DNA of 26,949 bases from a virus: positions 1 to 26,949 of IMG/VR virus record IMGVR_UViG_3300006749_000096. The stretch is one strand, 5' to 3'. A model generated the notes under the pieces. The model saw only the letters and a list, made by a program, of their open reading frames with translations. It ran no database searches and was not told where the DNA came from. A program made the translations under genes and the position numbers. This document shows positions 60 to 26,949 of this stretch, in pieces. Positions within the stretch are counted from its first letter, which is position 1, and every line of letters starts with the position of its first letter.

Positions 60-3000
60 ATGATATCAACCGATTTACAGCGAGTACAGATTCAGGATAT
101 TATTGAGTATCAGTTACCTGCATTTGTAAGGGATGATTTTCCACTTGTTGGTGAATTTTTAAAGCAGTATTATATTTCTCAAGAATATTCAACTGCACCC
201 TCTGATATCATACAGAATATTGACGAATACGTCAAACTTGAAACTCTTTTAGAAGGAGAAGATGAAACTCGTCTTGATGTTGATATTGATTTTAGCGATT
301 CAACTATAAATGCAACTTTTGATTTACGTAATGATCAGTTTGGTACTTATAAATTTCCAGAGAGATATGGACTTATTCAAATTGATGATGAAGTAATATT
401 ATATACAAGTAGAAATAATTATCAATTCTTTGATTGTGTTCGTGGATTTAGTGGTGTAACTGCGTTTAGTGATAATGATGAAGAACTGACATTCACCAGA
501 TCTGGGGCAACATCGCACACACAGGGTGCGAAGATTATAAATCTAAGCAATATTTTATTAAGAGAGTTTTTAGTAAAACTTAAAAAACAAATTGCTCCTG
601 GATTTGAAAAAAGATCTTTGAGTTCTGATGTAAATGAGAGACTTTTCTTATCAAGAACAAAGGATTTTTATCAATCAAAAGGAACAGACGAATCTTTTAA
701 AATTCTTTTTGCTGCTTTATATGGAGAAAAAGTAGAGGTTATTAAGCCAAAAGAGTTTCTCTTTAAGCCTTCTGATGCTGAATATAGAAAAACAAAAGAT
801 ATTGTCGTAGAGGCAATTGTAGGTGATCCTACAAATTTAAAAAATCAAACTCTTTATCAAGATTCATATCCAGAATATGGGATACCTCAATCTTATGCTA
901 CTGTTATTGATGTAGAAAAACTTCAAAGAGGAAGTAAAACTTTTTATCAACTAAGTGTTGACTTTGATTATGGTAAAGATATTATTCTTTCTGGCGGAAC
1001 TATCTCCGGGGATTTTTCCGCACATCCGAAAACTCAAAATACTATTTTAGTATCAACTGGTTCATCAATTATTGATGTTGATTCAACTATTGGTTTTCCT
1101 GAAAGGGGAGAACTGAGCATCAATGGACAAAGTGGTATTCTAACTTATAGATCTAAAAACCTAACTCAATTTACTGACGTAGGTGTAGCACATACTACAG
1201 TCGTTGGAACTGGTGCTCAAATCGATCTGGGAACTGAATTAAGACTAAACGTTAGTGCATATGGTTTCTTAGGAATTAACCCTGTCTCAGTCGCTTCTAG
1301 CGATGCCTCAGCGGTAGGAGTAGCAACAACATCTAAGATTGAAGTGCGGTTAGGAAATGTACTTTCTAACAATGTCGTCTATGATGAAACTTCTTATTAC
1401 AATGATAAAGATACTATCAACATTAAGTCGCTTGGTATTTCTACAATATCTCCTCTTACAGATAATTGGTTCAATAACGTAAGTGTTAGATATGATGTTA
1501 GATCAATTGAATTAATTGACTCATCCAACTTTACTTACAGAATTACACTATTTGCAGATAACGACTTTAAGATTGGTGACAAATTAACCGTGCTTCAGGC
1601 AGATAGCACTGAAAGGCAAGGAGTTATTATAGATTTTGATAATTCAAAACAATTCCTCCTGTCAAGAACTGGTTTATTAACTGGTACACACTTTAGTGTA
1701 AGAAGAAATATTCTTAAACCAGATATTAGTAATGTTAATAACAAAAAATATTCTTACGCACAAAATATTCCGGCGAATGTACAGAATACGTATGCAAAAT
1801 ATAACGGTGATGTTTTAGTTGCATCTTCATCTATTCCTTTTTATCATGACACTCCTTTAAGTTTCTATGATAGAAAAGTATCTCTGGATGGTGTTTATCA
1901 AGGAGAGACATTTTCTATTGATAGAAATCACGGTTTTGTAACAGGAGACAAAGTTTACTATGATTCTTATGTTTACACTGATCAGGATGGTGCTCCTGTA
2001 GAAAGCAGATTTCCTGAAATTTTACCGGGATTATTTTATGTAAAAAAAGTTGATGATACATCATTTAAAATTGCCTCTAGTTTAACTAATCTTGATAGCG
2101 ATACTTTTATTTCAGTATCTGGAATCGTAACTAGTAATTTCCTCTGTGCAAACAATTTTTATAATAAAAATTTAGAAAATCAACAATTAGTAAGAGAATT
2201 TAAAAAATCTCCTGTTAACAATGGTGGAGATTATGTAACACTTCCAGGTAGAACTGGTATGTTGGTAAATGGTGTTGAAATTTTAAATTATAAATCTGGA
2301 GATAGTATTTACTACGGAACAATTAATAATGTTATTGTATCAGCTGGTGGTGATGGTTATGATGTTATAAATCCTCCAATTCTGTCAATCCAAGATACTA
2401 CTGGAATTGGTGCAACTGGACTTGTAAATGTAAAGGGAGAATTAGATAGAATTGATATTATTGATGGAGGGTTTGATTATATTTCAGATCCAATAATCAC
2501 AATTACAGGTGGAAATGGCTCTGGTGCAAGTGCTACTGCAAATACAAAACTGATCAATCACTCAATTTCATTCTTTGCAACAGCAGATAATCCTCAAATA
2601 GGATTATCTTCAGAAACAATTGGATTTACTACTTTCCATAAATTTAGAGAATCTGAAAAGGTAGTTTATAAAACCGATGGACAAACTGCCCTGGGTGGAC
2701 TTTCTGACGATGCCGAATACTATATTAAAATTGTTGATACAAAAACTGTAAAATTATTCTTAACTGAAGCGGATTCTATCCTCGGAACTAATCCAGTAAA
2801 TATTTCAGCATATAGTGATGGCATTCATAGATTTGAATCTTTTGAAAAGAAACGTATCGTTTCTAACGTAGTTGTAACCTCGTCTGGTTTAAACTATGAA
2901 AATAAACAGAGAACATCTTCAATTGCTGGTATTAATACTGCTTTAGATCAGATTAATATCAAGAACCATGGTTTTGTATCTGGAGACACCGTAACATACT

Positions 3001-6000
3001 CTGGAGACGCTTCTGGACTTAGTTCAGATCAGAATTACATTGTTACTGTCGTTGATACAGATAACTTTAAGTTGTCATCTGTGGGTGTAGGAACAACTGC
3101 AAAGATGTTCTACTATGACACCAATCAATATGCAAAAATTGAATCTAGTGGAACTGGATCTCATACATTTAACTATCCTCCAATTTCAGTAACTATATCT
3201 GGAGAAATTGGAATTAATACCGTAAGTGGACAAGACTTTAATGCTAAACTTCAACCAGTATTTAAAGGATCTATTGAATCAATTCACTTAACAAACAATG
3301 GTGTTGGATATGGATCAAGTGAGATTATTAACTTTAACAGACAACCATCCTTTAGATTACTTAGTGGTAAAGATGCAAGTCTCTTACCTATTGTTAATGA
3401 TGGTAGAATTCAGGAAGTATTAGTGTTAAATGGTGGTTCTGAATTTAACTCAGCACCTCAATTAGTAATCAATGGTGAGGGTAGTTTTGCTAAAATAACT
3501 CCTGTTATTGTTAATGGTGAGATCGATAGAGTTATTATTGATAATCCGGGTATTGATTACACTGATACTACTACTGTAAGTATAATATCAAATGGATTAG
3601 GGGCAAACTTAACTGCTGAAATTAATCAGTGGACTTTAAATCTTTTTGAAAAATATAAAAATATTATAAGTGATGATGATGGTATATTAGATGCATCTCT
3701 ATCTGATGATTATGGAATACAGTATACTCATCTTTATGCTCCAAGAAAACTTAGACAAAGTGTATTTGGCAAAACTTTATCCGGTACTACAAATTTTGGA
3801 TACAGTGATTTAGCAAAAGGAACAAAATATGGAGTTTCTGATTTAAGAATTGATGCAGCTAACGAAGAAATTGTTTCCGAATTCCACTCTCCTATAATTG
3901 GTTGGGCATATGATGGTAATCCCATCTATGGCCCCTATGGTTTTGATACCAAAACTGGTGGAGTTATCAGAGCGATGAGAAGCGGATATAGTTTAGTGCA
4001 ATCTTCAAATCGTCCTCCGTTATCATTATGGAACAATGGATTTTTCTGCGAAGATTACAAATTTACTGGGGATGGAGATCTCGATGAATATAACGGTAGA
4101 TATTGTATAACTCCAGATTATCCTAACGGTGTATATGCGTATTTTGCAACCATAAGTGACGGTGCTGTCGCTGGTGATGGATTGTTTGAAAACTTTAAAT
4201 TACCACAATTCCCTTACTTTATTGGTAATAAATTTAAATCTCAACCAAACGAATTTAATTTTAAAAATAGTTCGTATCAGGGAAAATATGATATTGTAAG
4301 TGATATGTGGTTGAGAGACACCACATCTTATGGATTAACAAAAGATAATGTTTCATATGAATTTGTAACTGAACCATATAAGGTTTATACAGAATCAATT
4401 GATATTACTTCTACTTCCGTTGGCACTATTGATAATGTTGGTATTATCACAGGTGGTAGTGGATATAAAGTAGGAGATAAAATAGTCTTTGAACCTTTAA
4501 CAGGCGCAAGTTCTGCTAATGCAAAAGTTTCAAGAGTTTCTGGTAAAGTCATTGATGATATAAGTGTTGAGTCTTTATCTTTATCTGAATTAGAAATTTC
4601 TCCGATTGATTCTTCGGGAAGATTTGTAGCATTTGCATCATCATCTCACAACCTTACTAATACAGATCTAGTCACTTTGTCTGGATTTAATACTTCAATT
4701 AATATTTCCAACAAATCTTATAACATTGGAGTTACCTCTAGTTTTTACAATTTAAGTTCTGGTGTCAGCACTTCTGGCAATACGGGTATTGTTACATATT
4801 TCTCTGTTGGAGGAGGAATTATTAATCGTGGACTTCTTTCCATCAGAGAAAATGATATCTTAACTTTGGGATCTGAAAAAGTTCGCGTACTTAACGTTGA
4901 TAATAAAAGCTCACGTTTCAGAGTTGAAAGAGCTGTTAGCAGCACAGTTTCTGCTGCTCATACTGCAACTACATCACTAATTGAAGATAGTCGTAAGTTT
5001 ACTTTCTCAGCAAGTAGAGAAAATAAAGTTGATTTTGATCTGAATAAACAAGTATATTTTGATCCCCGCGAAACCTTAGGTGTTGGTACTTTAAGTGGTG
5101 TTGGAATTGGTTCAACGGTATTCTTCTCCAATCCAGGTGCGGGTATCACTCAAAAATTTGTATCTACAAAAACATTATTCATTCCTAATCATGAACTTTA
5201 TACTGGAGATGTAGTTGTTTACAATAACGGCGGCGGAACATCAATCGAAGTTGATAAAAATCCAACTGTTGGAACCACTTACAGAATTGCTAATGATACA
5301 CCTCTCTATGTTGCTAAAATTAGCGCGAATGAAATTGGTATTCAAACATTTAAAGTAGGAATTGGATCTACTGGAACTTTTGTTGGTATCGCTGATACCA
5401 CAATGAATTCTGGATTACTGCACTTCACTGGTATTGGAACTGGTGTAATGCATAGTCTTAAGACTCTTAGAAGCAATGTTGTTACTGCTGAGGCTATAAG
5501 AAATAGAGTTACTGTTGCAACTGCTTCTACTCATGGATTGTCTATTGATGACAAAGTAAGAATGTCAGTTAAACCTGGTGTTATTACTAATATTAGTGTT
5601 AAGTATAATGATCATAACAGAAGAATCGTATTTAATCCTTTGGGATTTACCACTGCAGGTGTAAGTACATCTCAAAATACTATTGAAATTTCAGATCATG
5701 GATTTAATACTGGTGATAAAGTAATTCTTGATTCTAATCCAGCTCCTACTGGACTTGAGGATCAAAAAATCTATTACATTAATAAACTTTCTAAAGATAA
5801 AATTAGACTTTGCAAATCAAGATATCAGTCTGAACAGTTCAATCCAAGTTTCATTTCAATTGATATTGCAAGAAAAGGAACTTTACTACCAATTAATCCA
5901 TCTTTAAATGTATACTCAGGTAACACTGTTGTATTTGACTTAAGTGATTCTTCACTTTCTTCACTCAATAATTCTTCGTTATATTCTGCATTTGATCTCC

Positions 6001-9000
6001 ATCTTTACACAGATTACAATTTTACTGATGAATTTAGTGGATCATTAACAAGCAGTAAGTTTGAAGTTACTAAGTTAGGTAAAGTTGGTATTGATGCGAA
6101 CGCAAAACTTACTTTAGTAGTTAATGATGATGTTCCCAAGAATATTTTCTATAAATTCTCACCGATCAATACCGACTACACTACAGAATCAAAGAAAAAT
6201 ATCGTCATTGACAAAGAAATTGATGGATTTAACAAGATTAATGTTATAAACAGCGTGTATACAGGAGAATTTTCTGTAGTCGGTGTTGGTACAACCACCA
6301 CCTTTAAATATGATGTTAAAAAACTTCCAGAGAGAAGTTCTTATAATAAGTTTAATGGTGGATTATCTTACGATACTAGTTCAATCAATGCATACGGTGG
6401 AATTTCTGATATCATTATTTCTTTTAAAGGAGCAAACTATAACGAGATTGTTGGAGTATCCACTGTTGAGGGAACTATAACAGGATCTGGTGCTGTTCTT
6501 GAACCCTTTAGTAATACAATCGGAAAAGTTCTTTCAACAAAAATTTCAAATATTGGATTTGACTATCCAACCGATTTTACTATTCGTCCAACTACTAATT
6601 TACCAGAGGTTCTTTTACTTGAATCTCTAACTTCATTTGAAGAAATTGGAATTTCATCCGTTGGTAGAAATTACTCACTTGCTCCAAATTTAGTTGTTTT
6701 AGATGGATTAACTGGTAAACATATTGATGATGTTGATCTTTTCTATAGTTTAGGTGATTCTAAAGTCACCATCAGAAATAACACCAAAGGACTTAATAAT
6801 GTAACTCCAACAATTATTCCTATAAGTAACTCAAACGGTGTTCCTATTGAAAGAATAACATATAATACTTCAACTAAGTTAGCGACTGTTGGTTTTGACA
6901 CTGGATTCTCCGATAAGTCCCCGTTTGCCGTAGGTGATAAAGTACTTATTGAGAATGTTAGTGTTGGTGTTGGTTCCACAGGAACAGGATTTAATTCATC
7001 TGACTATGGATATCATCTGTTCACACTAACTGATGTAAACATTCCTGTAGGTGGTAATGTTGGTGTTGTTACATTTAGTATGGATGAAGTTCTTAATGAT
7101 AATATTCATGCAGGAAACTACGATACAATAAATTCTGCTGGAAGAATAATAAATCAAAGTTCTTTCCCACAATTTAATATTAAACTGAAAAAGAATAATT
7201 TCTTACTTGGTGAAACAGTTGTATCAAACGGTGGTGAAGGAAAGGTTGATAGTTGGAATAATAGAATTGAACTTTTGAAAGTTTCGACATCAAGAGACTT
7301 TTTAGTTGGTGATATTGTAACTGGACAAACTTCAGGAACTCAAGGCACCGTTAAATCTAAAATTGATTATAATTCCGATATAGAAACGGCATCTTCATCT
7401 ATAGTAGAGAAGGGTTGGAATAAAACGACTGGATTCTTTAATGATAATCAGCAAAGAATTCCTGATAATTTCTATTATCAAAACTTTTCTTATGCAATTA
7501 AATCTAAAATTCCTCTACAAAATTGGGATGATGCTGTAAGTTCTTTAACTCATACTGCAGGGTTCTTGAAATTTAGTGATTTAGTCATTGAATCTGCTGA
7601 TGATAGAGTTGGAGGAACAGTATTTACTGATTCTTCTTCAACAGTATCACTAGTCGTTGATATTCTTCCTACTACAACGTATGGAAATGGCAATTTTGGT
7701 GGAGGAATTAGCTTAAATTGCTATCCAGCATTTGATTTAGTGACTGAAAACTCAAAAATTGCTTCTGGAACCATCTATTCCGATAGAATTTTCTTAGAAA
7801 ATAGAGTTTTAACTGATTATTTTGAGTCTGTAGGTAATAGAGCCTTAATAATTGACGACATCAGTAAGCAATTTAATAGTGTAGAACGTCCCACTAAGTT
7901 TAGTGTTGTTAAAAAATTCCCAGTTGATCAAAAATCTAAGAAAATTTTAACTTATGTTCGTGATAAAGTAATTACTTCCGAAATACAGGCGTCACTTGTA
8001 ACTTTAGTTCATAATGGATCAATCGCTGAAGTATTAAATTATGGCAGGGTAGAATCAACGTTGGATTTGGGATCTTTTGACTTCAGTATTGCAGGATCTG
8101 AGGGACAACTTTTATTCTTCCCCACAAAATTTAGAACACAAAACTACAATGTATCATATTGTAGTTTCGATCTTGACAATACTATCTCTGGTATTGGATC
8201 ATTTTCACTGGGTGAAATCTGCAATATTGAATCTTCTCAAGTTGTAGTACCTGCAGCAACAAAAACAACAATTGTAGGGATAGCATCAACATATAGATCA
8301 TCAAAAGTTCTAGTTGAATTGCAAGATCAAAGAGGAATTACTGCTTTTAATGAACTTAATATTATTCATGATGGAACTGACGCTCAACTTCTTGAATATG
8401 GCGATGTTTCAACTGATTTTGGATCAACTGTAACTGGACTTGGAACATATTCAATCGACATGTCTGGAGGTGATGTAAATGTTGAATTCACCCCTGCAGT
8501 TGGACTTGCTCTCACTGCTAACACAGTAAGAGTTTCTTTATCAAGCACTGAATCTGTTGGTGTTGGAACAACAGTTATTGGACTTGCTGGACAAAATATT
8601 TCAGAACTTCAATCATTCCACACTACACTAGCATCATCATCTAATCCTGGAATCCATACTATTGCTTCTTATACTTGTGCGGGCACAAATGACTATCAAG
8701 CAGCATATTACATTGTAAGTATAGAAGATACTACAAATGATGAATATCAATTATCTGAGATCATTGTTGTTAATGATGACTCTAGAACATTTATTACTGA
8801 ATATGGTGTATTAACTACAGGAAGTGGTATCGGTACAATTGGATCTCTCACTGATGGTACCGAAACTCATCTTCAATTTACACCTCCTGCTAATACTGAT
8901 GTTCAAACAAAGGTATATCAGCAAGCAATTCAGTTAGTAGCTGTTGATGATACTCTTGATCATGAAATTGATTTAAACAATGCATCTATTACAGCAGGTT

Positions 9001-12000
9001 ATGGTTTCTATGAAGGTACTGCCATTGATGTTAGAAGGCAATTTGAATTAAATCACAAAGGAAGGCCTATTTTCCAAAGAACTTTTGATGGTGGTGATAC
9101 AAATGTTGTAGATCTAACTAATAATCAAATTACTGTTCCAAATCACTTCTTCACTACTGGAGAACCTCTTAATTATTCCGTTGGAGTTGCTACACATGTT
9201 CGTGTTGGTATTGCAACAACTACTTTTGCTGGAGTGGGTAGCACTGATTTTCTTCCTACTAACGCCTTTGTCTTTGCAATTAAAGTTAATGATTCTACTA
9301 TAAAATTAGCTCGATCTGCCACTGATGCTAATGCATTGGAACCTACAGCGATTGATTTTACAAGTATAGGAATTGGAACATTCCACAAACTCACTTCTAA
9401 TCAACAAAATTCTAAGTGTTTGATTGCCCTTGATAATTTCATTCAAAATCCAATTGTTTCTACTGCTACAACAACTGCTTTAGACAAAAAAATTGGTATA
9501 GCAGATGCCACGATAGAAACCATCGGAATTACTTCATTTTTTGCTGCAGATTTGATTCAAGTTGAATCCGAAATTATGAAAATTAACACTGTTGGTTTTG
9601 GATTAACCAATAGTATATTAGTTGATCGTGGGTGGATGGGCACTGGAATTACGACACACCCAGTTGGTGTTGCTGTAACTAAAGTTGATGGTGCTTATAA
9701 TATTATTGATAATACCATTAACTTCTACATTGCACCTCAAGGTGCAACACCTATTAGTTCAATTACTAATCCACCTGATTCTAGAGACTTTACTGGAATT
9801 ACTACTCATTCTAAATTCCAGGGAAGAACATTCCTTAGATCAGAATCTAAAGGTAGCACAAAGGCTGCATATCACTCCAATTATGTTTTTGATAGTATTG
9901 CGGATCAATTTGATGCAACTACTAAGACATTCACCCTTAAATCTGAGCAAGAAGATGTTGTTGGATTCTCCACAAATAATGGAGTGATTCTGATCAACGG
10001 GGTATTCCAAGGGCCAACCGGTGATTTAGTTCCTCAAGATTACTCATTAAGTGAAGGTTCTGGAATTAGTAGTGTTACTTTTACAGGAACTGCTACTTCT
10101 GTATCTTATGATCCAAATAATGCAAACATCCCTGTTGGAGGATTAATTGTATCAGTTGGTTCAACCGCAGGACTTGGTTATCAACCACTTATCTCTGCAG
10201 GGGGTACTGCAATTGTATCTGCAGGAGGAACAATTGTATCAATTAGCATTGGAAATACTGGTTCTGGTTACAGACAAGGATCTCAAACAGTAAATGTTGG
10301 TGTTTATACCTCATCAACTGGAAAAACTGGTATTGAGTTTATTGGTACTGCTGCAGTAAGTAATGGTAATGTAGTAAGTGTTGCTGTTACTAACCCTGGA
10401 TCTGGATATTTAATTGGATCTGAACCAATTGTCGTCTTTGATGAACCTTTATCATATTCTGATATTCCTCTAATCTACTCTGACGATTCTCCTTCAGGAT
10501 TTGGTACTGAGGCAACTATTGATATTGTTGTTGGACAAGGATCAAGTGTCATTGATTTTGAAGTCAAAAACTTTGGATATCGTTATGGACAAAAACAAAT
10601 TCTGACTGTGGCAACTGGTGGAGCAACTGGTATTCCTACCGATACAAACATTAATTTTAAAGAATTCCAGATTACAGTTGAAAAAACCGATTCAGATAAA
10701 TTCTCTGGATGGCATTTTGGTGAATTAGAGCGTCTTGATAACATTCATGATGAATTTGATGGTAACACTAGACAGTTTACTGTTAAGAGAAATGGTGCTC
10801 CTGTTACAATCAGATCAGCAGTTGGTTCAAATATAGATGTTCAAGCAACTTTACTTATCTTTATTAATGATATATTACAAATTCCAGGTGAATCATATAC
10901 TTTTGATGGTGGAAGTGTAATAAACTTCTCTGAACCACCTAAAGGAAGATCTGCAGATGGTTCATTCCCTGGTGACAAATCCAAAATTCTTTTCTATAAG
11001 GGATCTGGTGATATTGATGTTACTTTCCGTGATGTCCTAGAATCTGTCAAAGCTGGTGATGAGTTAACAATCAGAACTAGTGAAACACTGGTTCCAAATT
11101 CGATTAATCAGTCAGGTAGATTATCAACTAAGATTATTTCTTCCGATACTGTCGAGACAAATCCATATTATGAAGCAGGTATTGACTCGAACCCAGATCA
11201 TAAACGTGTAGTTACACTATGTCAGCAAACCTCTGACAAAGTAATTAACGGTAAAATTGTCAGTAAGGCAAGAGAATTAAACGCTGCTTTAATTAATCCA
11301 AGAACACACTTGATTCAATCGGTTGGTGTTGGATCCACTCAAATTTACGTTGAAAGTGTAATTCCTTTCTTTAATCCAGATGATGAGAATCAAACTGTTA
11401 AAAATCAGCAAACCATAAGTATCGTTTCTCAAAATAATATTGTGGCCGCTGCTGCGACAGCAGTTGTTTCCATCGCCAATACTGTCGAATCTATTACTAT
11501 TGGATATGGAGGAACAGGATATACTTCCGCTCCTTCTGTTACAATTTCAAATCCAGTAGGATTTGGTACAACTGCAAGAGCAACTGCAGTTGCAACTCTT
11601 ACAGGTGATACGGTTTCTTCGATTACTGTTTCCACACCTGGTATTGGATATACAAGAACCGTTGCTTCTCAAGTTCTTATTGAAGCACCTAAATTAGAAA
11701 GAGAACAAAATAGAACCTCTCTCTATCAGGGTGATTTTGGCGATATTGTCGGATTGAACACCACTTCTGTTGGTGTAGCAACCACAGGATATGTCATGGA
11801 TTTATTCATTCCAATTAACTCATTCTTACGTAATACTAAAGTTGTCGGGGCTGCTGTCACTCTAAGTGATATATCAGTTGGAGATTACTTTACAGTTAAG
11901 AATAGTAATGTTGGAAGTGGCGTAACTTCACTATATCAAACTGGTGAAACATTAGGTATTACAACACAATTCCTTGATAGTGTTTATGAAGTTGCAGCAG

Positions 12001-12266
12001 TTTCTGTGGGAACAACTGCAGTTGCTGGTGTTGGTATCACATACGTTAAGAGAGTAACTGTTAGCGTCGAAGATTATGGAAATCGCACTGGTATTGGATT
12101 GACTGAATTCTATGGACAATTCTCTTGGGGTAAAATTACCCTTGGAGGTAGATTAAATGCAACTGCATTTGATGCGTATCTTCTCAAAGGTACCGCTGGT
12201 ATTACAACTGGTGCTGTTATCAACAGAGTTCAACCTCTAAAATTAGTGGGATACTCCACAACTTAA
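60..12266 (+). CDS. Giant virion structural protein with YHYH-type domain, gp7 slot of the baseplate
   Basis: A 4068-residue protein that recalls the large 'YHYH domain' structural proteins of marine T4-like phages. The helical N-terminus (about 1-260, with LPAFVRDDFPLVGEFLKQYY near 19-38) looks like the anchoring part. The rest is beta-rich and modular: GxGY/P repeats (near 759, 798, 1075, 1120, 1158, 1460, 2117, 2161, 2197, 3392, 3439, 3497, 3809, 3851); HGFxxGDxVxY repeats (near 618, 855, 966, 1530, 1707, 1824, 1875, 3024); a YHYH-type domain at about 1275-1390 (GWAYDGNPIYGPYGF at 1281-1295, LDEYNGR at 1341-1347, FPYFIG at 1384-1389); an aromatic NFYYQNFSYAIKS domain near 2450-2520; and a threefold module at 2640-2960. 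It lies between the gp6 position and gp8, where T4 has gp7 (1032 residues), so a peripheral baseplate role is inferred. The start follows the upstream stop with only a weak TAAG-type site; no other ATG lies nearby in frame. Confidence 0.85.
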   Translation: MISTDLQRVQIQDIIEYQLPAFVRDDFPLVGEFLKQYYISQEYSTAPSDIIQNIDEYVKLETLLEGEDETRLDVDIDFSDSTINATFDLRNDQFGTYKFPERYGLIQIDDEVILYTSRNNYQFFDCVRGFSGVTAFSDNDEELTFTRSGATSHTQGAKIINLSNILLREFLVKLKKQIAPGFEKRSLSSDVNERLFLSRTKDFYQSKGTDESFKILFAALYGEKVEVIKPKEFLFKPSDAEYRKTKDIVVEAIVGDPTNLKNQTLYQDSYPEYGIPQSYATVIDVEKLQRGSKTFYQLSVDFDYGKDIILSGGTISGDFSAHPKTQNTILVSTGSSIIDVDSTIGFPERGELSINGQSGILTYRSKNLTQFTDVGVAHTTVVGTGAQIDLGTELRLNVSAYGFLGINPVSVASSDASAVGVATTSKIEVRLGNVLSNNVVYDETSYYNDKDTINIKSLGISTISPLTDNWFNNVSVRYDVRSIELIDSSNFTYRITLFADNDFKIGDKLTVLQADSTERQGVIIDFDNSKQFLLSRTGLLTGTHFSVRRNILKPDISNVNNKKYSYAQNIPANVQNTYAKYNGDVLVASSSIPFYHDTPLSFYDRKVSLDGVYQGETFSIDRNHGFVTGDKVYYDSYVYTDQDGAPVESRFPEILPGLFYVKKVDDTSFKIASSLTNLDSDTFISVSGIVTSNFLCANNFYNKNLENQQLVREFKKSPVNNGGDYVTLPGRTGMLVNGVEILNYKSGDSIYYGTINNVIVSAGGDGYDVINPPILSIQDTTGIGATGLVNVKGELDRIDIIDGGFDYISDPIITITGGNGSGASATANTKLINHSISFFATADNPQIGLSSETIGFTTFHKFRESEKVVYKTDGQTALGGLSDDAEYYIKIVDTKTVKLFLTEADSILGTNPVNISAYSDGIHRFESFEKKRIVSNVVVTSSGLNYENKQRTSSIAGINTALDQINIKNHGFVSGDTVTYSGDASGLSSDQNYIVTVVDTDNFKLSSVGVGTTAKMFYYDTNQYAKIESSGTGSHTFNYPPISVTISGEIGINTVSGQDFNAKLQPVFKGSIESIHLTNNGVGYGSSEIINFNRQPSFRLLSGKDASLLPIVNDGRIQEVLVLNGGSEFNSAPQLVINGEGSFAKITPVIVNGEIDRVIIDNPGIDYTDTTTVSIISNGLGANLTAEINQWTLNLFEKYKNIISDDDGILDASLSDDYGIQYTHLYAPRKLRQSVFGKTLSGTTNFGYSDLAKGTKYGVSDLRIDAANEEIVSEFHSPIIGWAYDGNPIYGPYGFDTKTGGVIRAMRSGYSLVQSSNRPPLSLWNNGFFCEDYKFTGDGDLDEYNGRYCITPDYPNGVYAYFATISDGAVAGDGLFENFKLPQFPYFIGNKFKSQPNEFNFKNSSYQGKYDIVSDMWLRDTTSYGLTKDNVSYEFVTEPYKVYTESIDITSTSVGTIDNVGIITGGSGYKVGDKIVFEPLTGASSANAKVSRVSGKVIDDISVESLSLSELEISPIDSSGRFVAFASSSHNLTNTDLVTLSGFNTSINISNKSYNIGVTSSFYNLSSGVSTSGNTGIVTYFSVGGGIINRGLLSIRENDILTLGSEKVRVLNVDNKSSRFRVERAVSSTVSAAHTATTSLIEDSRKFTFSASRENKVDFDLNKQVYFDPRETLGVGTLSGVGIGSTVFFSNPGAGITQKFVSTKTLFIPNHELYTGDVVVYNNGGGTSIEVDKNPTVGTTYRIANDTPLYVAKISANEIGIQTFKVGIGSTGTFVGIADTTMNSGLLHFTGIGTGVMHSLKTLRSNVVTAEAIRNRVTVATASTHGLSIDDKVRMSVKPGVITNISVKYNDHNRRIVFNPLGFTTAGVSTSQNTIEISDHGFNTGDKVILDSNPAPTGLEDQKIYYINKLSKDKIRLCKSRYQSEQFNPSFISIDIARKGTLLPINPSLNVYSGNTVVFDLSDSSLSSLNNSSLYSAFDLHLYTDYNFTDEFSGSLTSSKFEVTKLGKVGIDANAKLTLVVNDDVPKNIFYKFSPINTDYTTESKKNIVIDKEIDGFNKINVINSVYTGEFSVVGVGTTTTFKYDVKKLPERSSYNKFNGGLSYDTSSINAYGGISDIIISFKGANYNEIVGVSTVEGTITGSGAVLEPFSNTIGKVLSTKISNIGFDYPTDFTIRPTTNLPEVLLLESLTSFEEIGISSVGRNYSLAPNLVVLDGLTGKHIDDVDLFYSLGDSKVTIRNNTKGLNNVTPTIIPISNSNGVPIERITYNTSTKLATVGFDTGFSDKSPFAVGDKVLIENVSVGVGSTGTGFNSSDYGYHLFTLTDVNIPVGGNVGVVTFSMDEVLNDNIHAGNYDTINSAGRIINQSSFPQFNIKLKKNNFLLGETVVSNGGEGKVDSWNNRIELLKVSTSRDFLVGDIVTGQTSGTQGTVKSKIDYNSDIETASSSIVEKGWNKTTGFFNDNQQRIPDNFYYQNFSYAIKSKIPLQNWDDAVSSLTHTAGFLKFSDLVIESADDRVGGTVFTDSSSTVSLVVDILPTTTYGNGNFGGGISLNCYPAFDLVTENSKIASGTIYSDRIFLENRVLTDYFESVGNRALIIDDISKQFNSVERPTKFSVVKKFPVDQKSKKILTYVRDKVITSEIQASLVTLVHNGSIAEVLNYGRVESTLDLGSFDFSIAGSEGQLLFFPTKFRTQNYNVSYCSFDLDNTISGIGSFSLGEICNIESSQVVVPAATKTTIVGIASTYRSSKVLVELQDQRGITAFNELNIIHDGTDAQLLEYGDVSTDFGSTVTGLGTYSIDMSGGDVNVEFTPAVGLALTANTVRVSLSSTESVGVGTTVIGLAGQNISELQSFHTTLASSSNPGIHTIASYTCAGTNDYQAAYYIVSIEDTTNDEYQLSEIIVVNDDSRTFITEYGVLTTGSGIGTIGSLTDGTETHLQFTPPANTDVQTKVYQQAIQLVAVDDTLDHEIDLNNASITAGYGFYEGTAIDVRRQFELNHKGRPIFQRTFDGGDTNVVDLTNNQITVPNHFFTTGEPLNYSVGVATHVRVGIATTTFAGVGSTDFLPTNAFVFAIKVNDSTIKLARSATDANALEPTAIDFTSIGIGTFHKLTSNQQNSKCLIALDNFIQNPIVSTATTTALDKKIGIADATIETIGITSFFAADLIQVESEIMKINTVGFGLTNSILVDRGWMGTGITTHPVGVAVTKVDGAYNIIDNTINFYIAPQGATPISSITNPPDSRDFTGITTHSKFQGRTFLRSESKGSTKAAYHSNYVFDSIADQFDATTKTFTLKSEQEDVVGFSTNNGVILINGVFQGPTGDLVPQDYSLSEGSGISSVTFTGTATSVSYDPNNANIPVGGLIVSVGSTAGLGYQPLISAGGTAIVSAGGTIVSISIGNTGSGYRQGSQTVNVGVYTSSTGKTGIEFIGTAAVSNGNVVSVAVTNPGSGYLIGSEPIVVFDEPLSYSDIPLIYSDDSPSGFGTEATIDIVVGQGSSVIDFEVKNFGYRYGQKQILTVATGGATGIPTDTNINFKEFQITVEKTDSDKFSGWHFGELERLDNIHDEFDGNTRQFTVKRNGAPVTIRSAVGSNIDVQATLLIFINDILQIPGESYTFDGGSVINFSEPPKGRSADGSFPGDKSKILFYKGSGDIDVTFRDVLESVKAGDELTIRTSETLVPNSINQSGRLSTKIISSDTVETNPYYEAGIDSNPDHKRVVTLCQQTSDKVINGKIVSKARELNAALINPRTHLIQSVGVGSTQIYVESVIPFFNPDDENQTVKNQQTISIVSQNNIVAAAATAVVSIANTVESITIGYGGTGYTSAPSVTISNPVGFGTTARATAVATLTGDTVSSITVSTPGIGYTRTVASQVLIEAPKLEREQNRTSLYQGDFGDIVGLNTTSVGVATTGYVMDLFIPINSFLRNTKVVGAAVTLSDISVGDYFTVKNSNVGSGVTSLYQTGETLGITTQFLDSVYEVAAVSVGTTAVAGVGITYVKRVTVSVEDYGNRTGIGLTEFYGQFSWGKITLGGRLNATAFDAYLLKGTAGITTGAVINRVQPLKLVGYSTT
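3882..4226 (+). other. YHYH-type domain inside the giant protein, signature tetrapeptide altered
   Basis: Codons for about residues 1275-1390 of the giant protein. Two blocks typical of YHYH-family proteins are clear: a G-x-A-x-DG-x-PIYGP block (GWAYDGNPIYGPYGF) and an LDEYNGR block, followed by FPYFIG. At the expected YHYH position the protein reads YAYF (1359-1362), so both histidines are absent. The domain call is firm on the flanking blocks. Loss of a histidine-dependent function is inference. Confidence 0.75.
7977..8937 (+). repeat. Threefold tandem protein module within the giant gene
   Basis: Three diverged copies of a module of about 70-90 residues follow each other at residues about 2640-2707, 2747-2833 and 2880-2960. 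Each has a short strand ending in a turn (LVTLVHNGS, LNIIHDGT, IIVVNDDS; the H/H/N is at 2651, 2770 and 2905), then a Tyr-Gly strand (LNYGRVEST, LEYGDVST, TEYGVLTT), a Gly-rich stretch, and a hydrophobic-FP/FTP strand (LLFFPTKF, VEFTPAVG, LQFTPPAN). The spacing between copies is 119 and 135 residues. The copies are diverged enough that DNA identity is low, so this is an old duplication. Confidence 0.65.
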
Positions 12267-12294: not shown

Positions 12295-13854
12295 ATGGCT
12301 GCGATTATAACTGATCAACTTCGTATATTAAATGCAAAAGATTTTGTTGCTAGTGTGGCTTCCACTAGTAGCACTTTGTATTCTTTTGTTGGACTTCCCA
12401 ATCCTACTGATGTTGATGTAAGTTGGGATAGCAGTCCTCCTGATCCAAGGGATAACTTTAATCAAGAGAATGATTATTGGGATACAATGATTGCTCTCAA
12501 AAAAATTGATTCTGATGATGTTAAACAAGTTATCAGAAAAGTAACTTGGGCGTCTGGTACAACATATGATATGTATCGTCCAGACATTAAAGCAGAGAAT
12601 CCTTCACAACCCTCAAGTTCTATTACTCTCTATGAGGCAAATTATTATGTAATGAACTCTGATTTTAGAGTTTATGTTTGCTTGCAGAATGGAACTAATC
12701 CAGAAAATCCAAGTGGTAAAGCATCTCTTGATGAACCAACTTTTACTGATTTAGAACCAAGAGAAGCAGGAACTAGTGGTGATGGTTATATTTGGAAATA
12801 TCTTTACACAATAAAACCTGGAGATATTGTAAAATTTGATGCTACTAATTTTATGCCAGTACCAAAAGACTGGACAACTAGCACAGATTCAAATATAGCA
12901 GCAGTTAGAAACAATGCTGTTACGAGTGGACAACTAAAGATTGTTAAAATTAGTAATAGAGGTGTTGGATTAGGAACTGCAAATAGAACTTATACACGAG
13001 TTCCGATTAAAGGTGATGGAAATGGAGCAGAATGCACCATCTCTATCAATAATAATTCAAAAGTTGAATCTGTAGTTATTTCTAAAGGTGGATCTGGTTA
13101 TTCTTTCGGCACTATAGATCTTGTCGCTGGTAATGTCCCTACCGGATCAACTGCTCCTATATTCGATGTAATTATTCCACCTCAAGGTGGACATGGATCT
13201 GACATATACAGGGAACTTGGAGCAAGAAATGCTCTAATTTATTCTAGAATTGAGAATGATTCAGAAAATCCAGATTTTATTACAGGTAACGAAATTGCTA
13301 GAATTGGATTAGTACAAAATCCCAAGGCATATAATACATCATCAAATCTAACACTTGATAAAGCATCTGCAACATATGCTTTAAAACTAACAGGTGCTGG
13401 ATATAGTTCAGCAACATTTACACCAGACTCATTTATTACTCAAACAGTTGGATTTGGTTCTACGGCTGTTGGAAGAGTTGTTTCTTATGATCAGGTAACT
13501 GGAGTATTGAAATATTGGCAAGATAGATCAACTGCAGGATTTAATACTGATGGATCTAAAAATACGAGTCCTGAATATGGATTCAAAATGAATAGATTTG
13601 GGCCAAATATTGTTGATGGTGGTAATTTTAGTATTTTAGGTGGATCATCAACTTTAGCCATTCAAACTTCATTTACGGGTGTCTCAACTGAAATAAATAG
13701 TCGTACTTATTATTTGGGACAATCATTTAATAGTGGCGTTGCTCAACCAGAGGTTGAAAAGTATACAGGCAACATTATTTACGTAGATAATAGGCCTTCT
13801 ATTACAAGATCGTCCAGTCAAAAAGAAGATATCAAAATTATCTTGCAGTTCTAA
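12295..13854 (+). CDS. 8: Baseplate wedge subunit gp8
   Basis: A 519-residue protein recognised as the marine T4-like version of gp8, a wedge protein at the edge of the hexagonal baseplate. The N-terminus has the gp8-like start (ITDQLRILNAKDFVASV at 5-21), then DPRDNFNQENDYWDTMIALKK near 51-71, YDMYRPDI, SDFRVYVCLQNG and DGYIWKYLYTI near 163-173, which is the conserved core. T4 gp8 is 334 residues. The extra length comes largely from a GxGY-type insertion at about 216-278 (VVISKGGSGYSFGTIDLV) and a longer C-terminal half. It follows the giant gene after 28 bases that hold a late-promoter-like box. No clear Shine-Dalgarno site precedes the ATG; the leader is A-rich. Confidence 0.88.
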   Translation: MAAIITDQLRILNAKDFVASVASTSSTLYSFVGLPNPTDVDVSWDSSPPDPRDNFNQENDYWDTMIALKKIDSDDVKQVIRKVTWASGTTYDMYRPDIKAENPSQPSSSITLYEANYYVMNSDFRVYVCLQNGTNPENPSGKASLDEPTFTDLEPREAGTSGDGYIWKYLYTIKPGDIVKFDATNFMPVPKDWTTSTDSNIAAVRNNAVTSGQLKIVKISNRGVGLGTANRTYTRVPIKGDGNGAECTISINNNSKVESVVISKGGSGYSFGTIDLVAGNVPTGSTAPIFDVIIPPQGGHGSDIYRELGARNALIYSRIENDSENPDFITGNEIARIGLVQNPKAYNTSSNLTLDKASATYALKLTGAGYSSATFTPDSFITQTVGFGSTAVGRVVSYDQVTGVLKYWQDRSTAGFNTDGSKNTSPEYGFKMNRFGPNIVDGGNFSILGGSSTLAIQTSFTGVSTEINSRTYYLGQSFNSGVAQPEVEKYTGNIIYVDNRPSITRSSSQKEDIKIILQF

Positions 13855-22159: not shown

Positions 22160-23005
22160 ATGCAACCATCAACTAGAGCGGAGTTAGTAGACTACTGCAA
22201 AAGAAAGTTAGGTGCTCCCGTCCTTGAGATTAACGTTGCTGATGAGCAAATCGAGGACTTAGTTGATGATGCGATTCAATACTTTCATGAAAGACACTTC
22301 GATGGTGTCGGACAAGTATTTTTAAAATATCAAATAACTCAAGAAGATATTAATAGGGGTAGAAGTCCATCTTCATCAGTAACTCAAGCAGGTATTGTAA
22401 CAACAACCGCTTCATCTACAATTGATGGTGCATCTACGACATTTTCTTATACTGAAAATAGTAATTATTTACAGGTTCCTCCTTCTGTTATAGGAGTTAA
22501 TAAAATATTTCAATTTGCTGGTGCTAACACTGTTACCAATAATATGTTTAGTGTTAAGTATCAGTTATTTTTAAATGATGTTTATTTCTTTGGAAATACT
22601 GAGTTGTTGTCATATGCTATGACAAAGACGTATCTTGAAGATTTAGACTTCTTACTAAACACACATAAACAAATTAGATTTAACCAGCGGATGGATAGGT
22701 TATACCTAGACATTGATTGGGGTTCAGTCAGAGCTGGTGAATATATTATTATTGATTGTTTTAGAACAGTTGATCCTAATGATTTTTCAAGAGTATATAA
22801 CGACTCTTTTATTAAACCATACCTTACTGCATTGATTAAACGTCAATGGGGACAAAACCTGATGAAGTTTCAAGGAGTAAAACTTCCAGGTGGAGTTGAA
22901 CTTAATGGTAGACAAATTTATGAAGATGGACAAAATGATTTAGACAAAATCATAGAGAAAATGTCCAACACTTATGAACTTCCTCCACTTGATTTCATCG
23001 GATAA
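22160..23005 (+). CDS. 13: Neck protein gp13
   Basis: A 281-residue protein clearly of the T4 gp13 family, which with gp14 completes the head and joins it to the tail. Diagnostic stretches: LVDYCKRKLGAPVLEINVAD near 9-28, EQIEDLVDDAIQYFHERHFD near 29-48, VPPSVIGVNKIFQF near 107-120, MFSVKYQLFLNDVYF near 128-142, and near the end TALIKRQWGQNLMKFQGVKL and PGGVELNGRQIYEDG. The length is close to T4 gp13 (309). A Ser/Thr-rich stretch at about 74-95 lies between the two halves. Its TAA shares one base with the ATG of gene 14 (TAATG), so the two partners are probably coupled in translation. Confidence 0.93.
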   Translation: MQPSTRAELVDYCKRKLGAPVLEINVADEQIEDLVDDAIQYFHERHFDGVGQVFLKYQITQEDINRGRSPSSSVTQAGIVTTTASSTIDGASTTFSYTENSNYLQVPPSVIGVNKIFQFAGANTVTNNMFSVKYQLFLNDVYFFGNTELLSYAMTKTYLEDLDFLLNTHKQIRFNQRMDRLYLDIDWGSVRAGEYIIIDCFRTVDPNDFSRVYNDSFIKPYLTALIKRQWGQNLMKFQGVKLPGGVELNGRQIYEDGQNDLDKIIEKMSNTYELPPLDFIG

Positions 23006-24402
23006 TGGCATTAAATCCTTTTTTCTTACAAGGTTCTCAAGGAGAGCAAAGTCTTGTTCAAGACTTAATCAACGAACAGTTGAGAATGTATGGTGTCGAA
23101 GTTTATTACTTACCGAGACAGTATGTTACCAAAAATAAAATAATTCGTGAAGTAATTACGTCAGAATTTAATCAGTCGTATCCCATTGAGGCATATGTTG
23201 ATAATTTTGATGGATATGGAGATAATACCGTTCTCTTATCAAAATTTGGTGTTCAAGCAACTAATGAATTAAAGTTAATTATTTCTCAAGAAAGATTTTC
23301 AAGTTATATTACACCATTAATTAAAAATTTACCTAATATTGAACTTGCAACACGTCCAAAAGAGGGAGATCTGATTTATTTTCCACTTGGTGATAGACTT
23401 TTTGAAATTAAATTTGTCGAGCACGAAAAACCTTTTTATCAGTTACAAAAAAATTACGTATACGAATTAACTTGCGAACTGTTCAGAGGAGAAGATGAAA
23501 TTCTGGATACTGGTGTTGAGGAAATCGATGATACCTTCAATGTGGAAGGAAATATCAGATCTCTCACACTTGTCGGATCTGGATCCACCGCAACCGCTTT
23601 CTCTGGAAGAATTATTAGTGGTGCCGTCAACCAAATTATCGTTACCTCTAGAGGTGAAAAATACAATCATCCACCCACTGTTGCGATTTCATCTGCACCT
23701 ACCGGTGGTACCCGCGCCACAGGAATTTCAACCTTACGTAACGACATTGTTAATTGTGATGGAACTTTAATTGGAGAGAAAGTACAAGGTGTCTTCATTG
23801 TAAATCCTGGAGCAGGATATACTGCGAATCCAGGTATAGTATTCGTTGGAGTCAGTACTAATCCTGGAGTTGGTGCTGCTGCCACCACTAGGATATCCGA
23901 CAATACGGTTGGTATTGTAACTATAAGTGATGGTGGTGGTGGATATGTATCTGCACCAACAGTTACATTCAGTAGTCCTGGAATTGGAACAACTGCACAA
24001 GGTGTTGCCGTTGTCTCTGCTGCAGGAACAGTCTCTGCAATCTATCTAACAAATGCTGGTGCTGGATATACTGTAGCACCCACTATTACCCTTTCTGCTC
24101 CAGATTTAAGCGGAAGTGGAGACTTTATACCTACAGAAACCATAACCGGTTCTACAAGTGGTGTTACTGGAATTGTCAAAACTTGGAATTCTGTTACAAA
24201 CATTCTTACATATTCTAATGTTTCTGGTGACTTTGTTGCTGGAGAGACAATTACAGGATCCGAAAGCAGCGCCTCTTATAAAATTAGAGTTATAGAGGAT
24301 GATAATACTGTTAATAATTATCCCGATAATGATGAAATTAAACTTTCCGCTAGGGATGGAATCTTAGATTTCTCAGAATCTAATCCCTTTGGGAATCCTT
24401 AA
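23005..24402 (+). CDS. 14: Neck protein gp14 with a large modular insertion
   Basis: The N-terminal 172 residues are the gp14 core: DLINEQLRMYGVEVYYLPRQ near 20-39, then AYVDNFDGYGD, PKEGDLIYFPLGDRLFEIKF and PFYQLQKNYVYEL. The last residues (ILDFSESNPFGNP) match the conserved Ser-Asn-Pro-Phe end of T4 gp14. Between them lies an insertion of some 250 residues: four GxGY modules (near 209, 263, 302 and 343), then a module with two GETITG-type turns (371-432). T4 gp14 is 256 residues, so this one is nearly twice as long. The insert resembles modules in the giant baseplate proteins in this window. gp14 works with gp13 at the head-tail joint; the insert probably projects from the neck (inference). 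Confidence 0.9.
   Translation: MALNPFFLQGSQGEQSLVQDLINEQLRMYGVEVYYLPRQYVTKNKIIREVITSEFNQSYPIEAYVDNFDGYGDNTVLLSKFGVQATNELKLIISQERFSSYITPLIKNLPNIELATRPKEGDLIYFPLGDRLFEIKFVEHEKPFYQLQKNYVYELTCELFRGEDEILDTGVEEIDDTFNVEGNIRSLTLVGSGSTATAFSGRIISGAVNQIIVTSRGEKYNHPPTVAISSAPTGGTRATGISTLRNDIVNCDGTLIGEKVQGVFIVNPGAGYTANPGIVFVGVSTNPGVGAAATTRISDNTVGIVTISDGGGGYVSAPTVTFSSPGIGTTAQGVAVVSAAGTVSAIYLTNAGAGYTVAPTITLSAPDLSGSGDFIPTETITGSTSGVTGIVKTWNSVTNILTYSNVSGDFVAGETITGSESSASYKIRVIEDDNTVNNYPDNDEIKLSARDGILDFSESNPFGNP
23628..24303 (+). repeat. GxGY and GETITG module array within gene 14
   Basis: Four copies of a short beta module (VTSRGEKYNHPPTVAIS, VNPGAGYTANPGIVFV, ISDGGGGYVSAPTVTF, TNAGAGYTVAPTITL) at residues near 209, 263, 302 and 343 of gp14. 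They are followed by a paired TETITGSTSG / GETITGSES module. Spacings are uneven (54, 39 and 41 residues). T4 gp14 lacks this region. Confidence 0.75.
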
Positions 24403-24430: not shown

Positions 24431-25438
24431 ATGTTTGAATACTTTTACCATGAAATTCTGAGACGAACGATTATTTCGTTCGGAAGTCTTTTTAATGGAA
24501 TTGAAATCAAACATTTAGATTCCAATGGAAGTGTTGATGAAGTTATCAAGGTTCCTTTAGCATATGGGCCTACTCAGAAATTTTTAGCAAGACTTGAACA
24601 ATCGGCAGATCTTAATAAACCCACATCGATTACTCTCCCAAGAATGTCGTTTGAATTCACGGGACTTCAATATGATGGTACTAGAAAAGTAACCACAACT
24701 CAAACCTTCAAATCACAGAGTGTAGGTATTGCAACTGCAATTAGAAAAACCTACATGCCTGTGCCCTATAACATGTCATTTGAACTATCTATTTTCACTA
24801 AGTTGAATGATGATATGCTTCAAATAGTTGAACAAATTTTACCATATTTTCAACCAGCATACACATTATCTGTAAATCTAGTTGATACTATTGGGGAAAA
24901 AAGAGATATTCCAATAGTTATTGAAAATGTAACAATGCAGGATGATTACGAAGGTAATTATAATACTAGACGCTCCCTTCTTTATACAATAAGATTCACT
25001 GCAAAAACATATATCTTTGGCCCTGTTGGAGATACCTCAACGGCGTCCAGAGATCTTATCAAAAGAGTTCGTGTTGGATATGTTCAAGACGATTCTTCTA
25101 CTCCAACGAGAGATCTTACTTATACTGTTACTCCAAGAGCAACAAAAAGTTATACAGACAACGTTGTTACAAATCTTTCAGAGGACGTTGGAACTACCAC
25201 CAATATTCTTCAAGTAAATGATTCTTCTGGAATATCAGAAAATACCTTCATTGTAATTAATAATGAGTCTATCTACGTTGATAGAAAAGAAGGTAATACT
25301 CTGTTTACTAAGAGAGGACAAGACGAGACTATTGTAGGATCCCATGTTCGTGGCACAGCAGTTAATCTAATTACAGATGCTGATGATGCTTTAATTGAAA
25401 TTGGAGATGACTTTGGATTTGATGGTACAATCTCATGA
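24431..25438 (+). CDS. 15: Tail sheath stabiliser / tail terminator gp15
   Basis: A 335-residue protein of the T4 gp15 family, which forms the hexameric ring capping the tail tube and sheath and docks to the neck. The start MFEYFYHEILRR parallels T4 gp15 (MFGYFY...RR). Other markers: VPLAYGPTQKFLARLEQ near 41-57, LPRMSFEF near 69-76, and the near-invariant FELSIFTKLNDDMLQIVEQI followed by LPYFQP (about 117-142). The family core ends near residue 200 (TYIFGPV). The rest is an extension whose part at about 256-314 is the same GxxxIxxExIxY/RGxxGTxxxHxxGTxV module found in the giant and DUF4815 proteins. T4 gp15 has 272 residues. The stop overlaps the next start (ATGA). Confidence 0.92.
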   Translation: MFEYFYHEILRRTIISFGSLFNGIEIKHLDSNGSVDEVIKVPLAYGPTQKFLARLEQSADLNKPTSITLPRMSFEFTGLQYDGTRKVTTTQTFKSQSVGIATAIRKTYMPVPYNMSFELSIFTKLNDDMLQIVEQILPYFQPAYTLSVNLVDTIGEKRDIPIVIENVTMQDDYEGNYNTRRSLLYTIRFTAKTYIFGPVGDTSTASRDLIKRVRVGYVQDDSSTPTRDLTYTVTPRATKSYTDNVVTNLSEDVGTTTNILQVNDSSGISENTFIVINNESIYVDRKEGNTLFTKRGQDETIVGSHVRGTAVNLITDADDALIEIGDDFGFDGTIS

Positions 25439-25897: not shown

Positions 25898-26949
25898 ATG
25901 GCGCAGGCTGAAGATAAAAATTTGCCATCACTTGATGACTATCTTGTAGAAGGGGATTTGCCCTCTATAGAAGATTATATTGAGGTAGAAAAGGAAGAAG
26001 TCGAAGAAAAAATAGAAGAAGCAGTAGAACCAGAAGTTGTGGAATCTACTGTAGATCTTACAGAAATTTTACATCTTATCAGTGATGTTAGGAAAGATAT
26101 TCCTGAGATTCCTGAAGTAAGATATTATGATGATCAACTTGAAGCACTTTGCGAAGTAATTGATCAGTTAAGGGAAGATATTCCTGAGGTTCCCGAAGTA
26201 AAATATTATGATGACGAACTCGAAGCAGTTTGTGATCAAATTGATCAAGTAAAAGAGTTTATCGAATCAAAAATCGATGAACTTCCAGAAGTAAAATATT
26301 ATGATGAACAAGTTCAAAATATTGAAGATAGAATTGATTCTGTCATTCAAGAGGTAGCAAATCTTCCTGAACCAAAATATTATGAAGATGATTTACTCTC
26401 AATCAAAGAAGATATTGAGAGGGTAAAGGAATCTATCCCCAAGTTCCCTAAATGGGTAAATGAGGTTAATGAAGTTCCAGATTTTTCCTGGATCGGAAAA
26501 ACATTTAGTGTTATTGATGATGACTTTGTAAAAGTCAATGATACTATCGATGGTTTAAGAGGAAAAGTTCAATTTGATATAGAACAACTTACCGAAAATG
26601 TAGAGACAAAATACTTTAATAATTCAATCAAAATTGAATCAAATGTCAAGGATCTTGATAAAAAAGTAAATGTTCGTATTGATGAAGAGAAAGATAAAAT
26701 TTGGAAAGAACTCAGATCATCATCTCTCAAAATGTGGGAGTATCATAAAGAGTTTAAAGATGATGATCGCAAACTTAAAAAACAAATTCTTGGTGAATAT
26801 AATACCCTTAAGCAGAATATTAATAAAGAACTTAAGGAGATCAACTACACCAGCACTAAGACTGATGAGTTACTCCTAAAGTATTTTACTGAGTTAAGAG
26901 AAGAGATCTCAGAACTTCCAGAAGTCAAGTATTATGATAAAGATATTGA
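25898..26949 (+). CDS. Acidic coiled-coil protein with PEVKYYD repeats, 3'-incomplete
   Basis: The frame opens after a TAG at 25859, first ATG at 25898, and runs off the window end after 350 codons without a stop. The N-terminus is acidic (SLDDYLVEGDLPSIEDYIEV, then a Glu/Lys-rich stretch). Then come four PEVKYYD-type motifs at residues 72, 99, 130 and 157 (PEVRYYD, PEVKYYD, PEVKYYD, PEPKYYE), each followed by a heptad-like helix of about 20 residues (DDELEAVCDQIDQVKEFIES), and a fifth copy at 341. A region around 180-205 contains VPDFSWIGKTFSVIDDDFVK, and the rest is long charged helix. The pattern suggests an extended trimeric or dimeric rod, perhaps fibre- or whisker-like. I do not recognise the family. 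It stands between gp16 and the expected gp17. There is no clear ribosome binding site. Confidence 0.8.
   Translation, partial: MAQAEDKNLPSLDDYLVEGDLPSIEDYIEVEKEEVEEKIEEAVEPEVVESTVDLTEILHLISDVRKDIPEIPEVRYYDDQLEALCEVIDQLREDIPEVPEVKYYDDELEAVCDQIDQVKEFIESKIDELPEVKYYDEQVQNIEDRIDSVIQEVANLPEPKYYEDDLLSIKEDIERVKESIPKFPKWVNEVNEVPDFSWIGKTFSVIDDDFVKVNDTIDGLRGKVQFDIEQLTENVETKYFNNSIKIESNVKDLDKKVNVRIDEEKDKIWKELRSSSLKMWEYHKEFKDDDRKLKKQILGEYNTLKQNINKELKEINYTSTKTDELLLKYFTELREEISELPEVKYYDKDI
26111..26386 (+). repeat. PEVKYYD repeat block
   Basis: Four copies of a seven-codon motif start at 26111, 26192, 26285 and 26366 (spacings 81, 93 and 81 bases, i.e. 27, 31 and 27 residues); a fifth starts at 26918. Each motif is followed by an acidic amphipathic helix. 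Synonymous differences between copies show that they are diverged, not recent duplications. Confidence 0.8.

Follow-up and report, generated by a model that had tools for sequence, protein, structure and literature searches.

The head-closure ring of T4-like phages is a gate under pressure and is among the most conserved parts of their virions. As described in PMC12270204, T4 gp14 is a hexamer with a core formed by residues 5-177, followed by residues 178-256, which are disordered before tail docking and bound to gp15 in the virion. PHROGs already places the gp14s discussed here in head closure Hc2, and the gp14s of cultured phages related to the window carry the annotation "neck protein". T4 also carries fibritin (gpwac) at the neck, and wac is listed among the genes missing from cyanomyoviruses by Clokie et al. 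2010 (PMC2984593). Our search of the open-access literature, with most subscription papers outside its scope, found no description of the gp14 insert reported below.

The gp14 of the window and its insert

The window, meaning the whole stretch of DNA that was analysed, comes from a marine virus of the T4-like kind and is a fragment of 26,949 bases. Its neck genes stand in the usual order 13-14-15-16, with gp13, gp15 and gp16 flanking gp14 by profile matches, and gp8 is also on the fragment. The features of the neck region are as follows.

22160..23005, + strand: gp13, lacking the fibritin-binding domain III (gp13 alignments)
23005..24402, + strand: gp14, head closure Hc2 or neck protein, 465 aa (Pfam, PHROG, T4 gp14 alignment)
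23005..23535, + strand: T4 gp14-like core, residues 1-177 (PF11649 match and T4 gp14 fold match)
23542..23616, + strand: first strands of a small barrel, residues 180-204 (model strands 184-189 and 197-203)
23617..23742, + strand: GxGY module 1 (GEKY variant), residues 205-246 (module HMM 48.6 bits)
23776..23901, + strand: GxGY module 2, residues 258-299 (module HMM 44.2 bits)
23899..24021, + strand: GxGY module 3, residues 299-339 (module HMM 46.7 bits)
24022..24126, + strand: GxGY module 4, residues 340-374 (module HMM 44.1 bits)
24121..24300, + strand: remainder of the small barrel with the TETITG/GETITG hairpins, residues 373-432 (module-free counterpart in S-PM2 and P-SSM4)
24301..24399, + strand: C-terminal tail, residues 433-465, with ILDFSESNPFGNP as its last letters (equivalent to the last part of the T4 arm)
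24431..25438, + strand: gp15, with a C-terminal extension of ~70 aa past the T4-like part (gp15 comparison)

By family profile, core fold and gene order, the gp14 of the window is a T4-type head closure protein. PHROG 460 (head closure Hc2, 385 positions) includes it at 2.8e-130, whereas the Pfam T4_neck-protein family (PF11649) is limited to residues 3-179 (6.3e-29, 101.6 bits against a cutoff of 25); a search of NCBIfam gave no match. T4 gp14 itself aligns to residues 3-165, and the core fold resembles that of T4 gp14 in 9lu7 (Z 12.4, rmsd 3.4, 131 aligned within residues 1..164). The preliminary description, made from the letters alone, had the core stop near residue 172. That description also gave an insertion of about 250 residues at 23500-24303, equivalent to gp14 residues 166-433, and the insert as now delimited comprises 253 residues (180-432). 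This gp14 is matched by 2316 records of the phage collection, 351 of them over at least 80% of its length; the closest are cyanophage gp14s, such as that of S-SM2, which together with those of P-TIM68 and P-SSM2 are full-length relatives at 44-58% identity. An assembly artefact as the source of the insert can be dismissed, given that all 78 of 78 complete gp14s from one scan measure 458-481 aa with the same tail, that one of these (L001) is identical to the gp14 of the window, and that the insert is present in the cultured phages S-SM2, P-SSM2 and P-TIM68.

The insert is two-layered, consisting of a beta-barrel of ~70 residues and, accommodated in a single loop of it, four GxGY modules (205-374). 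In the gp14s of S-PM2 and P-SSM4 the strands that follow the core run straight into the TETITG/GETITG part to give a module-free domain of ~70 residues, and the barrel is present in all 14 of the 14 cyanophage gp14 clusters examined. The original picture of a gp14 interrupted by one insertion was thus right about the insert and too simple about its make-up, as the modules in turn break up a barrel that is conserved in cyanophages. Two other details of it need adjusting: the GETITG pair is present with its first copy reading TETITG (377) and only the second GETITG (413), and the modules do number four with the profile, the first of them reading GEKY rather than GxGY. The module HMM finds exactly four domains in the protein, each at 44-49 bits, against 4.4 bits for the best domain in 214 controls (reversed or shuffled window proteins together with T4 wac, gp13, gp14 and gp15). 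By regular expression, GxGY occurs three times against a shuffle mean of 0.44 and maximum of 4, which is weak alone, and the case for the modules therefore rests on the profile and on conservation over 55 aligned sequences.

An AlphaFold2 model of the whole gp14 has a pLDDT of 76.5 and a pTM of 0.49, with the insert confident (block means 74-93), and the four-module block folded alone reaches a pLDDT of 90.8 and a pTM of 0.82. The insert is predicted to be compact and all-beta. Residues 182..432 weakly resemble domain 3 of aIF2-gamma, the EF-Tu-like barrel of translation GTPases (Z 6.3, rmsd 3.4, 70 aligned), at a level that common arrangements also reach. This resemblance fits a model in which 182-203 and 376-432 would build a single barrel from which the modules loop out. 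For the GxGY block, Foldseek gave no PDB match under E 1.0, VIA-align gave no clear PDB match (best Z 2.7, rmsd 3.6, 81 aligned) and a profile search of PDB sequences gave none under E 1, a lack of matches that does not prove a new fold. Pfam finds no lectin domain (Laminin G or ConA-like) in the insert of the window.

Beyond the insert, the conserved C-terminal SNPF tail recognised in the preliminary description is well borne out: NPFG occurs in the last 40 residues of 476 of the 480 complete gp14s gathered below. A PF motif at the gp14 C terminus is shared with the Straboviridae, being found also in T4, phi-ST2, KP15 and the gp14s of Acinetobacter, Aeromonas and Vibrio D481, and it is missing from two Ackermannviridae (Ag3 and pertopsoe).

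The modules have kin elsewhere in the virion. The giant 4068-aa ORF of the window (60-12266), which belongs to phrog_2885 (baseplate wedge subunit), holds six related module domains at 7.0-31.2 bits, three further matches at 2.5-4.6 bits being noise; the two best are as follows.

11475..11591, + strand: best related GxGY module, giant ORF aa 3806-3844 (module HMM 31.2 bits)
2445..2555, + strand: second related GxGY module, giant ORF aa 796-832 (module HMM 23.2 bits)

Residues 283-374 of gp14 are identical to a block of the giant ORF at 46/86 positions, so that this block is as close to the gp14 modules as are the gp14s of other genera (P-SSM2 38/92, S-SKS1 40/86). Many virion proteins of these phages, including those of baseplate and fibre, carry such modules, and the early remark that they are of the kind filling giant baseplate proteins was correct. 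Separately, the Pfam match of gp8 (12295-13854, 519 aa) is split, with weak GxGY-like matches near residues 211-270 (2.7 and 7.5 bits), so that an insert like that of gp14 may be present in this wedge protein too. A very long profile, phrog_3465 (head closure Hc2, 978 positions), also matches the modules and may point to enlarged head-closure proteins in other phage groups.

Variation and history of the insert

For comparison, 498 loci yielded 480 complete gp14s, which fall into 17 clusters at 70% core identity, namely 14 of cyanophage type together with T4, phi-ST2 and Ag3. The loci come from six scans, one from the window and five from chosen cyanophage gp14s, with the best 80 taken from each, and counts are accordingly not prevalence. 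These gp14s range from 216 to 852 aa and from 0 to 9 modules; T4, phi-ST2, the Ackermannviridae, S-PM2 and P-SSM4 lack the modular insert, which varies among the others, and S-PM2 and P-SSM4 retain the barrel without modules. The region is thus accessory, as first proposed, rather than a part of the core fold carried by all close relatives.

Modules occupy two sites. At site A, the type found in the window, they lie ahead of the first hairpin of the barrel and are followed by an intact barrel, whereas at site B, seen in S-CAM8, ACG-2014j and IMG417, they lie within the first hairpin and split the barrel, S-CAM8 and ACG-2014j having two modules there. The S-SSM7-type gp14s are much longer (760-767 aa in 71 of 72, with one of 610) and carry a Laminin_G_3-like domain between the modules, detected at E <= 0.01 in 15 of the 17 members scanned from the 72 of the cluster (best 1.4e-6). 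In S-SSM7 gp14 itself this match scores 26.6 bits, one bit below the curated cutoff, and a search of PDB sequences gave no match to the lectin-like region. The longest gp14 among those examined, at ~850 aa, has nine modules (L424 3501-6050).

Two core trees, of 35 and 33 rows, place the module-less P-SSM4 inside the module-bearing S-CAM8 group and ACG-2014j, with its modules, inside the module-less S-PM2 group. Both require a minimum of four changes of presence or absence, or five when the two sites are coded as three states. Single gains or losses are not firm: trees in which the site-B rows of the S-CAM8 group form a clade that leaves out P-SSM4 survive the AU test (p 0.296), and so do those in which the S-PM2 type forms a clade that leaves out ACG-2014j (p 0.065). 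Stronger evidence for movement than the trees comes from discordance between core and insert. ACG-2014j and S-CAM8 share 72/174 core positions (41%) as against 87/115 of the insert (76%), so that inserts must have moved between lineages. Across 325 pairs of module-bearing proteins (pairs not independent) the insert identity minus the core identity averages -12 points, s.d. 12.8, and this pair is the extreme discordance, at +35 points. At the DNA level, ACG-2014j and its nearest core relative (L255) are 74-75% identical in the flanks, with ~270 bp without counterpart where the modules lie.

Selection on the modules is purifying and looser than on the core (dN/dS 0.11-0.33 versus 0.05-0.12, rough values with synonymous sites near saturation in some comparisons). 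Positive selection on gp14 was considered and rejected, no dN/dS exceeding 0.33. Gregory et al. 2016 (PMC5112629) report a McDonald-Kreitman signal on cyanophage gp14, with the caution that such signals did not exceed the false-positive rate.

Position on the neck and competing explanations

As the T4 core ends at residue 177 and its arm spans 178-256, the insert lies in the arm and not in the gate. Six inserts (150 kDa) would need ~182,000 cubic angstrom, against ~91,000 for a channel assumed to measure 44 x 60 angstrom on the basis of the 44-56 angstrom gp13 tunnel of T4 given in PMC12270204. With the channel size so assumed, a place for the modules inside the neck channel, raised in the preliminary description as the contrary case, is ruled out by volume, and the six inserts, which do not fit, should face outwards. 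Our search turned up no neck structure from any T4-like cyanophage.

We consider it probable, with some reserve, that the neck ring bears the insert as an exchangeable decoration, outside the neck and in six copies per virion. The original suggestion of fibre-type modules decorating the collar holds in so far as the insert is modular, accessory and related to baseplate and fibre proteins; its outward position is what we infer from the volumes. The six copies, of ~25 kDa each, would face outwards at the level of gp14 and gp15, hanging on the arm which in T4 grips gp15 at tail docking; the PF tail would be left free to reach gp15, with barrel and modules projecting sideways from the neck. The modules might bind glycans or other surfaces weakly, in the way that other decoration domains of phages do, and this would be their most likely use, although it is less certain than the decoration itself. 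The exchange of inserts, their variable number, the nested lectin-like domain and the kinship with baseplate and fibre proteins fit a surface-binding decoration best, and the nesting of the Laminin_G_3-like domain at the same place in S-SSM7-type gp14s points to surface binding. For the insert of the window, which has neither a lectin match nor, in its GxGY block, a clear PDB match, binding is only putative. Counting against it, the neck fibre of A-1(L) bears a carbohydrate-binding module at its tip, and this module did not bind the host (PMC10966104).

A more far-reaching version, which we regard as doubtful, would make the gp14 arm a general display platform on marine T4-like necks, with six sets of swappable blocks that bind surfaces, formed by GxGY modules with a fold absent from the PDB and in some cases a lectin domain, giving fibritin-less phages an adsorption collar. 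If so, collar density would be expected in module-bearing phages and none in S-PM2-type phages.

The main rival to decoration is that barrel and modules pack on gp15 and the upper end of the sheath, making the joint between head and tail stiffer, with no ligand. It has in its favour that the insert sits in the arm that binds gp15 in T4, that the gp15 of the window's clade has a C-terminal extension adjoining the matching region, and that gp15 is long in five module-bearing clusters (medians 331-361 aa). This extension is common to the window, S-SM2, P-TIM68, P-SSM4, S-SSM7, S-PRM1 and S-8S53 and is not found in P-SSM2, S-PM2 or S-CAM8; the gp15 of S-SKS1 was scored at 117 aa and is probably mis-called or a broken frame. 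As a partner of the modules the extension was rejected, there being no clear link: P-SSM4 has it without modules, P-SSM2, S-CAM8 and S-CAM7 have modules without it, and the two features do not track each other. A brace would moreover sit poorly with a module number ranging from 0 to 9, and a lectin-like domain would be odd in one. We judge reinforcement unlikely. In S-8S53-type phages (L094 1872-2990 and L425-type loci) gp13 measures 372-377 aa versus ~280, with an insertion of ~100 aa. Together with the gp15 extension, this shows that embellishment of the neck goes beyond gp14.

Less probable still is that recombination among virion genes seeds tolerant loops with passenger modules that have no function at the neck. 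Such an origin would suit the presence of these modules in many virion proteins, their repeated gain and loss, and the position of gp14, which in pelagimyophages adjoins a hypervariable host-recognition cluster (PMC7029224). Purifying selection on the modules speaks against it, as does a length that is near-constant within clades, for example 458-481 aa across the window's cluster of 74 gp14s.

The reading of the insert as a substitute for fibritin, which would replace the whiskers in helping to assemble or retain the long tail fibres, was offered in the preliminary description and is in our view very improbable. The premise was sound in that no wac was found in the window, which is however a fragment record, nor in 15 of the 21 phage records searched with phrog_1056; wac is present in T4 and phi-ST2, in 0/12 others, in 0/2 more and in 4/5 more, or 6/21 records. 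Published remarks also lend it something, as PMC2984593 sets a St Kilda cyanomyovirus with distinct whiskers (an unpublished remark) against the collarless S-PM2, whose gp14 is module-free. S-SKS1, with four modules and no wac, would be relevant if it is the St Kilda isolate, as it possibly is from its name, the record giving North Atlantic; S-PM2 and S-SKS1 are two cases, so that the match of modules and whiskers is a lead and not a test. Against substitution, wac and gp13 domain III are also lost in phages without modules, namely S-PM2, P-SSM4 and two Ackermannviridae. Domain III is missing in 422 of 424 gp13 loci, T4 and phi-ST2 being the two that have it, and among 20 aligned gp13s it is present in all six wac-bearing phages and in no others. 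Its loss is independent of the modules, which indicates that the gp13 socket has gone in cyanophages whatever their gp14 looks like. The insert is, besides, a predicted compact beta structure rather than a long coiled-coil fibre, it stands on gp14 beside gp15 and not on gp13, where fibritin binds, and phrog_1056 is not among the families matched by the gp14 of the window. A better fibritin look-alike is the coiled-coil ORF right after gp16.

That ORF (25898-26947, + strand, running off the end of the window) lies between gp16 and the expected gp17 and encodes an acidic, segmented coiled coil with 27-aa repeats (EVKYYDDQ...). Relatives were found in 26 loci, the longest measuring 863-1167 aa, and two of the three scanned have C-terminal tail-fibre modules, also matching phrog_460.

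Comparison with known systems

The insert is a real, widespread and variable decoration of a known protein. In a ring otherwise so conserved, the arm with which T4 grips the tail accommodates between 0 and more than 500 additional residues, which are nested and have been exchanged across distant lineages. Should the modules face outwards, marine cyanophages would have, in addition to tail fibres and baseplate, a further site for domains that bind, and the old remark on whiskered and collarless cyanophages would become testable from sequence.

With T4 gp14 (PDB 9mkb, 9lu4-9lu7) the protein of the window shares the core fold, the gene order 13-14-15-16 and the C-terminal PF tail; T4 differs in having a 79-residue arm (178-256) with no barrel or modules, and in having wac and the gp13 socket as well. 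Within PHROG 460 it is S-CAM8 gp14 that fits best, end to end and with two modules; the window type carries four, placed in another loop. The gp14s of S-SM2, P-TIM68 and P-SSM2 show the same architecture as the window, with an insert whose sequence diverges faster than the core. Fibritin would be comparable in adding mass to the neck, if the gp14 insert faces outwards, but it is the product of a separate gene, a segmented coiled-coil trimer, and binds gp13 domain III, none of which is true of the insert. A decorated cyanophage neck, with a carbohydrate-binding module there, is also provided by the neck fibres gp80-82 of A-1(L), which PMC10966104 describes as long separate fibres on a pentadecamer, whereas the insert of the window is built into the head-closure ring.
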